Assembly: GCA_021801265.1 (NCBI GenBank)
Contig: JAJYYE010000001.1
Coordinates: forward strand, 186,001 to 250,000
Length of the DNA: 64,000 nt
DNA from: Pseudomonadota bacterium
GTDB lineage: Bacteria; Pseudomonadota; Gammaproteobacteria; Halothiobacillales; Halothiobacillaceae
Reading direction: 5' to 3'
Positions within the stretch are counted from its first letter, which is position 1, and every line of letters begins with the position of its first letter. Both the position numbers and the translations under genes were made by a program. Positions 59,728 through 61,740 of the stretch are shown here, piece by piece. The notes under the pieces were generated by a model. The model saw only the letters and a list, made by a program, of their open reading frames with translations, searched no databases and had not been told where the DNA came from.

Positions 59728-60021
59728 TTAACCAACCTGACCGAGATCAATTACTTGACCTTCCGCCAGAGTGACATAGGCTTTTTTCCAGTCCGAGCGG
59801 CGGCCTGCTACACCCCGGAAACGGCGGGTTTTACCCGCAACGTTCAAGGTTTGCACCGCAAGAACCTGGACGCTAAACAGCTGCTCTACAGCGGCCTTTA
59901 TTTCAGCTTTGTTTGCTGAAGTATCAACGCGAAAAACATATTGGTTCTCTTGATTTGCACGTGCTGTCTTTTCTGTAACCATCGGTGCGCGGAGCACATC
60001 AAAAATTCTTTCTTGATTCAT
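59728..60021 (-). CDS. rplW: 50S ribosomal protein L23
   Basis: 97 residues from the ATG at 60021. AGGAG eight bases upstream and an ATGA overlap with the rplD stop codon support this start; a GTG-type start at 60030 is less likely. [20 protein letters not shown] and [20 protein letters not shown] are conserved. Docking site for trigger factor and SRP at the exit tunnel. Confidence 0.97.
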
Positions 60022-60626
60022 GACAACCACTCCTCAACCATCTTCAAAGCAGCGCGGGTCATCACAACGCGATCCGCACCAACCAAGCTCACTGGATCAA
60101 GCGTATCAGCAGTGAGATAACCTAATTCAATCACGTTACGAGACCCTAAAAACAAATGCTCATTAAAAGCTTCTGTCACCAACAGTGTCCGGCCAGACTG
60201 AACACCGAGGTTCTTCATCAAGCCCAACACTTCACGGGTTTTTGGTGCTGCAACAGCCAAGGTATCAACCAAAACCAAACGGTCTTGACGAATCAACTCA
60301 GAGAAAATCGAAGCCATCGCAACGCGATACGCTTTACGATTGATTTTCTGCTCGAAGTTACGCGGCCGCGCAGCGAACGTAACACCGCCGGTACGCCAAA
60401 TGGGCGAACGCGTTGTACCCGCACGGGCACGACCTGTACCCTTTTGATTCCAAGGTTTTTTACCACCGCCAGAAACTTCTGAACGGGTAAGTTGGCGCTT
60501 GGTACCAGCGCGTGCGCCGGCCATAAAAGCGACAACCACTTGATGGATCAGACCTTCGTTATATGAACGGTCAAATATTTGTTCTGAAACGCTAATTGAA
60601 GCGCCATCTTTTACCTGTAATTCCAT
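60018..60626 (-). CDS. rplD: 50S ribosomal protein L4
   Basis: 202 residues. Conserved GARAGTKRQLTRSEVSGGGK and KPWNQKGTGRARAGTTRSP, the tunnel-lining loop. In E. coli L4 also represses the S10 operon through its leader. Here a leader-like hairpin lies upstream of rplC rather than rpsJ, so L4 is the natural candidate ligand. Confidence 0.98.
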   Translation of the reverse strand: MELQVKDGASISVSEQIFDRSYNEGLIHQVVVAFMAGARAGTKRQLTRSEVSGGGKKPWNQKGTGRARAGTTRSPIWRTGGVTFAARPRNFEQKINRKAYRVAMASIFSELIRQDRLVLVDTLAVAAPKTREVLGLMKNLGVQSGRTLLVTEAFNEHLFLGSRNVIELGYLTADTLDPVSLVGADRVVMTRAALKMVEEWLS

Positions 60627-61279: not shown

Positions 61280-61333
61280 GGTTAATACCTCTAAATTTAT
61301 GAAAGGCGCCGATTACGATTGACCGGTTCACCT

Positions 61334-61366
61334 GAAAAAACCAGCCCGGTGCAACAACACCGGGCC
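61334..61366 (-). terminator. Attenuator-like hairpin between rpsJ and rplC
   Basis: On the minus strand a perfect 8-bp stem GCCCGGTG/CACCGGGC with a six-base loop TTGTTG is followed by TGGTTTTTT. It has the form of an intrinsic terminator inside the operon, about 55 bases before rplC. Confidence 0.65.
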
Positions 61367-61379
61367 GAGAAGGGTCGAT

Positions 61380-61408
61380 AATTTACCAGCAATCAAACAG
61401 AACGTAAA
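61380..61408 (-). promoter_or_regulatory. Possible internal promoter upstream of rplC
   Basis: On the minus strand TTTACG (61403-61408), a 17-base spacer, and TAAATT (61380-61385). Each hexamer matches the sigma-70 consensus at four of six positions. It would start a leader that runs straight into the attenuator-like hairpin. Confidence 0.4.
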
Positions 61409-61428
61409 GCGCTATTTGACACCCCGGA

Positions 61429-61740
61429 TCAATTCAACCGAATTTGAACATCCACACCTGCAGCCAGATCCAGTTGCATTAACAAATCAACCGTACGATC
61501 TGTTGGCTCAATAATATCGAGCACCCGCTTGTGGGTACGCAGTTCATATTGGTCGCGCGCATCTTTATTCACATGCGGAGAAACCAGGACCGTGAAGCGC
61601 TCCTTCCGACTCGGCAAAGGGATCGGCCCCTTCACGCGAGCACCGGAACGACGTGCAGTTTCAACAATTTCAGCCGCTGAACGGTCGATCAAACGATGAT
61701 CGAAACTTTTCAGGCGAATGCGGATAGTTTGGGAAGCCAT
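61429..61740 (-). CDS. rpsJ: 30S ribosomal protein S10
   Basis: 103 residues. [20 protein letters not shown] and [34 protein letters not shown] are conserved. Also the NusE partner of NusB in antitermination. It starts five bases after tuf ends, so it is coupled to the str-type operon, and is followed by a 149-base regulatory gap before rplC. Confidence 0.98.

Follow-up and report, generated by a model that had tools for sequence, protein, structure and literature searches.

A Predicted Promoter and a Putative L4-Responsive Leader between rpsJ and rplC in Halothiobacillus

The 64,000-nt stretch of DNA analysed here, hereafter the window, carries on its minus strand the str/S10/spc region of a Halothiobacillus genome, its closest named relatives being Halothiobacillus, and all its features described below lie on that strand. 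We propose that the gap between rpsJ and rplC is probably composed of a promoter and a 5' leader through which ribosomal protein L4, acting at a hairpin named P3, controls the rplC-led S10-type operon. This reading is favoured because P3 matches the upper part of stem E in the E. coli S10 leader, and because the same gap in Pseudomonas holds a near copy of the presumed L4 site of 23S rRNA; the fact that the downstream operon encodes L4 also counts for it. The core intuition of the original prediction, namely, that an L4-type leader acts before rplC, is thereby strengthened by evidence from P3, a hairpin that it had missed.

Gene Order and Promoter of the rplC-Led Operon

The rpsJ gene, coding for S10 (61429..61740, with its stop at 61429), is the end gene of the upstream unit fusA-tuf-rpsJ, and only 5 nt separate it from tuf, as had been predicted. 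The gap that follows comprises 149 nt and ends at the rplC ATG (61279). The rplC gene (L3, 60635..61279) is the first of the putatively regulated unit, and rplD (60018..60626), coding for L4, the proposed repressor, is the second, the whole operon encoding L3, L4, L23, L2, S19, L22, S3, L16, L29 and S17. Within the gap, the elements originally reported (TTTACG-N17-TAAATT, a GC-rich hairpin and TTTTTT) were all correct in position and sequence. The grouping of S10 with the EF-Tu/EF-G unit is supported as well, Guyparkeria and some other relatives harbouring a terminator-like hairpin before the rplC promoter. Such a hairpin between rpsJ and the promoter, closing the fusA-tuf-rpsJ unit, was observed at L011, L012-L021 and L026.

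The promoter consists of a -35-like TTTACG (61403..61408) and a -10-like TAAATT (61380..61385) separated by 17 nt, both of which are invariant in the eight aligned Halothiobacillus gaps. It is weak by itself, with 8 of 12 consensus positions by our own count, and was absent among the sites reported by a promoter scan with a threshold of 9/12. In related genera, an extended -10 element, TGTTATAGT, occupies the place of TAAATT, with a GC-rich stretch after it; a similar sequence, TATAATGCGCGGGC, is present in the E. coli S10 promoter. The invariance of both motifs in Halothiobacillus and the presence of the extended -10 in sister genera make the rplC promoter credible, and we infer that it is active, with a predicted start near 61373. 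The claim that rplC and the genes beyond it possess their own promoter and structured leader is thus upheld.

An inverted repeat, CAAATAGCGC-TTTAC-GTTCTGTTTG (61394..61418), overlies the -35 element, with TTTAC in its loop, and covaries within Halothiobacillus; it could form an RNA hairpin in readthrough transcripts or constitute a protein site on DNA. In other respects, a -10-like element before rplC was noticed in about 12 further families devoid of P3 (L023, L148-L156, L159-L160, L175, L178, L199 and others), and in most of them a GGCCCGG-type hairpin, not followed by a U-run, then lies near the predicted 5' end.

Two Conserved Hairpins in the Leader

The RNA from 61375 to 61280 is more stably folded than each of 200 shuffled sequences (z = -3.5), and it contains two conserved and covarying hairpins. 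Among the 18 distinct sequences of the leader family, 95.5% of the cells pair, changes on both sides of a pair are found in 31 cells versus 10 in shuffles, and this covariation signal is lost upon sliding of the pairing partners.

The first hairpin, P2 (61341..61368, GCCCGGTG/CACCGGGC), was called by a scan as a 12-pair, GC-rich, terminator-like structure. It starts a few bases past the predicted transcription start and is followed by the run TTTTTT (61335..61340), so that the perfect GC hairpin and T-run announced by the original prediction are indeed present, with the geometry of an intrinsic terminator. Comparison with relatives, which had been suggested as a check, revealed that the stem is kept with compensatory changes, 98% of its cells being paired in the 18 distinct sequences. 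The proposal that the rplC unit is subject to its own attenuation is not sustained as it stands: the terminator-like stem and the U-run are there, but the latter is interrupted (ATATTTC) in three out of ten Halothiobacillus genomes (L004, L008 and L009), while P3 is invariant, and no antiterminator alternative to P2 was seen in MFE, centroid or alignment folds. Attenuation at P2 is possible. Since at least four T are found in the eight bases after the upstream hairpin in most leaders with P3, it is plausible that the U-run acts as a partial terminator or a pause site.

The second hairpin, P3 (61304..61333, AGGTG-AA-CCGGT[CAATCGTA]ATCGG-CGCCT), is located between P2 and the ribosome-binding site and is more conserved than P2. 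All pairs of its stem are variable, seven out of eight changing on both sides, and its covariation score reaches 0.544 compared with 0.261 in shuffles. The loop is the 8-nt CAAUCGNA in 38 of the 39 distinct sequences, and a U-A closure is likewise present in 38/39. In the window, the loop (CAAUCGUA in the RNA) is the same as at the tip of the attenuator hairpin in the E. coli S10 leader. Seeing the L4-type element in P2 was therefore not borne out, the U-run of P2 being interrupted and P3 representing the invariant L4-type hairpin. P3 ends about 12 nt upstream of the Shine-Dalgarno sequence and is followed by TTTCATAAATTTAGAGG, the U-run occurring only after P2. The Shine-Dalgarno sequence of rplC, AGAGG (61288..61292), pairs with the 5' CUUCU of the leader in the MFE fold; the resulting three-way junction, present in some folds and absent from the centroid, is tentative.

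Searches with a covariance model combining P2 and P3 retrieved the leader in many unrelated Gammaproteobacteria, the matches with the P3 loop being situated between rpsJ and rplC. P3 precedes rplC in 17 of the 100 gammaproteobacterial families sampled, and never precedes rpsJ outside the E. coli order. In the whole genome, the model gives one strong match, and two more matches to GRTCAATCGNAATY lie within open frames without a matching stem. Outside Gammaproteobacteria, the model attains only about 25-30 bits, which is the level of GC hairpins with U-runs. Weaker matches of model R1 away from rplC, at L133, L138, L141 and L142 and in non-gammaproteobacterial genomes, reach at most about 30 bits; they look like ordinary GC hairpins followed by U-runs and were discarded. 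A scan of the window leader against the curated families of Rfam 15 yielded no covariance model match, and Rfam scans of six other loci revealed no r-leader.

Relationship with the E. coli S10 Leader

According to PMC10578931, the E. coli S10 leader ends in the attenuator hairpin, stem E, and L4 control depends on stem D. Binding of L4 to domain I of 23S rRNA and to the S10 leader is competitive (PMC7186457), and E. coli L4 represses translation too (PMC7186457, PMC10578931). With regard to sequence, the leader carries CCCAU-CAAUCGUA-AUGGG atop stem E, and the AGG, AGU and AAC motifs listed in PMC10578931 fit this hairpin. A P3 model from which E. coli and its order had been left out gave its three best matches in 58 kb at S10-leader hairpins (L280, E. 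coli and L272), with E values of about 0.003-0.02. The rplC leader of one family (f54) has an E. coli-like stem, CCAU/AUGG.

Both systems associate a promoter with a structured leader of two successive hairpins, the second one topped by the loop CAAUCGUA with its U-A closure, and both precede a unit encoding L4. They differ in their location, before rplC in the window and before rpsJ in E. coli, and in the length of the leader (about 95 nt versus about 170 nt). Furthermore, the U-run follows the first hairpin, ahead of P3, in the window, whereas it follows HE in E. coli, and the window leader is devoid of the 5' hairpins that precede the HD position. P2 occupies the place upstream of P3, but its loop differs from that of HD in the E. 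coli order. Among 51 loci of this order, only 5 have CAAUCGNA as their HE loop; L4 control is therefore not defined by the loop alone, and P3 and the E. coli HE could have come to match by convergence.

The 23S rRNA Copy in Pseudomonas and Other Known Leaders

The rpsJ-rplC gap of Pseudomonas and of two other families sampled contains, instead of P3, a near copy of nucleotides 290-343 of 23S rRNA. The Pseudomonas gap scores 42 against 23S rRNA, the shuffle maximum being 25, and H19 of the copy is kept by compensatory changes. Nucleotides 290-343 are what we take to be the L4 site, and Stelzl and colleagues reportedly delimited the minimal site to this segment. Since L24 also contacts 23S domain I, such a copy need not be a site for L4 alone. 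A near copy of nucleotides 288-343 (H18-H20) of E. coli 23S rRNA was found directly before rplC at L043 and 63 further named loci, nearly all from Pseudomonas, as well as at L220 (score 63) and L221. The Pseudomonas and window leaders share the same gap and presumably the same ligand; the former is a direct rRNA copy, whereas the latter has no rRNA sequence match, P3 matching neither 23S nor 16S rRNA and the window leader scoring 23 against 23S domain I, within shuffles.

An archaeal counterpart by gene position is the candidate L4 r-leader of Archaeoglobi, which lies upstream of rplC-rplD-rplW-rplB with L4 as presumed ligand (Eckert and Weinberg 2020, PMC7247131). The Firmicutes S10 r-leader, mentioned in the same article (PMC7247131), is also an r-leader on an S10-type operon, in another phylum.

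Proposed Mechanism and Alternative Explanations

With regard to the ligand and the level of control, L4 and translation, respectively, are what we infer from these sequence comparisons. Transcription would begin near 61373, and the RNA would open with P2 and its U-run, followed by P3. L4 in excess of 23S rRNA would bind the leader at P3 and lower the expression of the unit. Given the short distance between P3 and the Shine-Dalgarno sequence, bound L4 would most simply block rplC initiation, and coupling would pass the repression on to the downstream genes. An action on translation is most likely because the U-run of P2 is broken in some Halothiobacillus genomes and precedes P3; termination at this U-run would occur before P3 is synthesised, so that any influence of L4 on it would have to go through P2. 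This hairpin and its U-run may cause partial termination or pausing, or may protect the 5' end, while S10 would stay with the fusA-tuf unit.

Another ribosomal protein of the unit could bind P3 instead of L4, for instance L3, encoded by the first gene, or L24, encoded by the adjoining spc genes. The product of the nearest gene is the ligand of many r-leaders, closeness is one of the criteria by which PMC7247131 assigns ligands, and P3 has no detectable rRNA counterpart to fix its ligand. We nevertheless regard such a ligand as unlikely, since P3 shares its loop with the E. coli hairpin that responds to L4, and the H18-H20 copy in the same Pseudomonas gap indicates a binder of domain I.

Two further explanations dispense with a protein ligand. 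That P2 and its U-run terminate the fusA-tuf-rpsJ transcript, the rplC promoter being ordinary and unregulated, would agree with the intrinsic-terminator geometry of P2 and its position about 60 nt past rpsJ. However, the promoter lies upstream of P2, hence rplC transcripts cross it too, and Guyparkeria, despite its separate terminator-like hairpin before the promoter, keeps P2 and U6, so that P2 there acts on rplC transcripts; as P3 is also left unexplained, we consider this explanation quite improbable. Slightly less probable again is that P2 serves as a 5'-terminal stabiliser of a very abundant mRNA and P3 as a translation element without protein ligand. In its favour, P2 begins in many families only a few nucleotides from the predicted start, and families without a U-run after the hairpin retain it as well; against it, a near-invariant loop carried by a covarying stem is what one expects of a binding site and not of a generic stabiliser. 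An L4-responsive leader is therefore the explanation that we prefer.

Evolution of the Leader Position

According to the original prediction, the regulatory point had moved one gene downstream in this genome. A tree of nine ribosomal proteins (FastTree) does not support this: leaders are located before rplC across Gammaproteobacteria, a position before rpsJ being confined to the E. coli order. The genomes of this order are monophyletic and are nested beside Pseudomonas and a P3 genome (0.999). Under parsimony, a leader before rplC is assigned to the gammaproteobacterial root. Since the E. coli order is nested inside and the root has the leader before rplC, it is the E. coli position that looks derived, and the rplC position older; the taxa having been picked partly for carrying P3 and several backbone nodes being weak, the tree provides support, not proof. 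In the literature, L4 control of the S10 operon has been reported to be absent from Pseudomonas and is taken to have arisen late, on the branch leading to E. coli (review PMC10931766).

With a confidence that falls a little short of even, we can propose that an undescribed L4 r-leader before rplC is ancestral in Gammaproteobacteria, that its place in the E. coli order is derived, and that Pseudomonas swapped in a copy of the 23S L4 site. If so, L4-type control would be exerted before rplC across Gammaproteobacteria, S10 would be regulated together with EF-G and EF-Tu, and two different RNAs, a short hairpin and an rRNA copy, would fill a single position; the origin of the classic feedback loop would then be open to simple reporter and binding assays.

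In the E. coli order, CAAUCGNA was encountered as the HE loop only in E. coli-like families, and at the loci upstream of rpsJ (L252-L301) conservation seems higher in the HD loop, of the CCCGATTTGGG type, than in that of HE.
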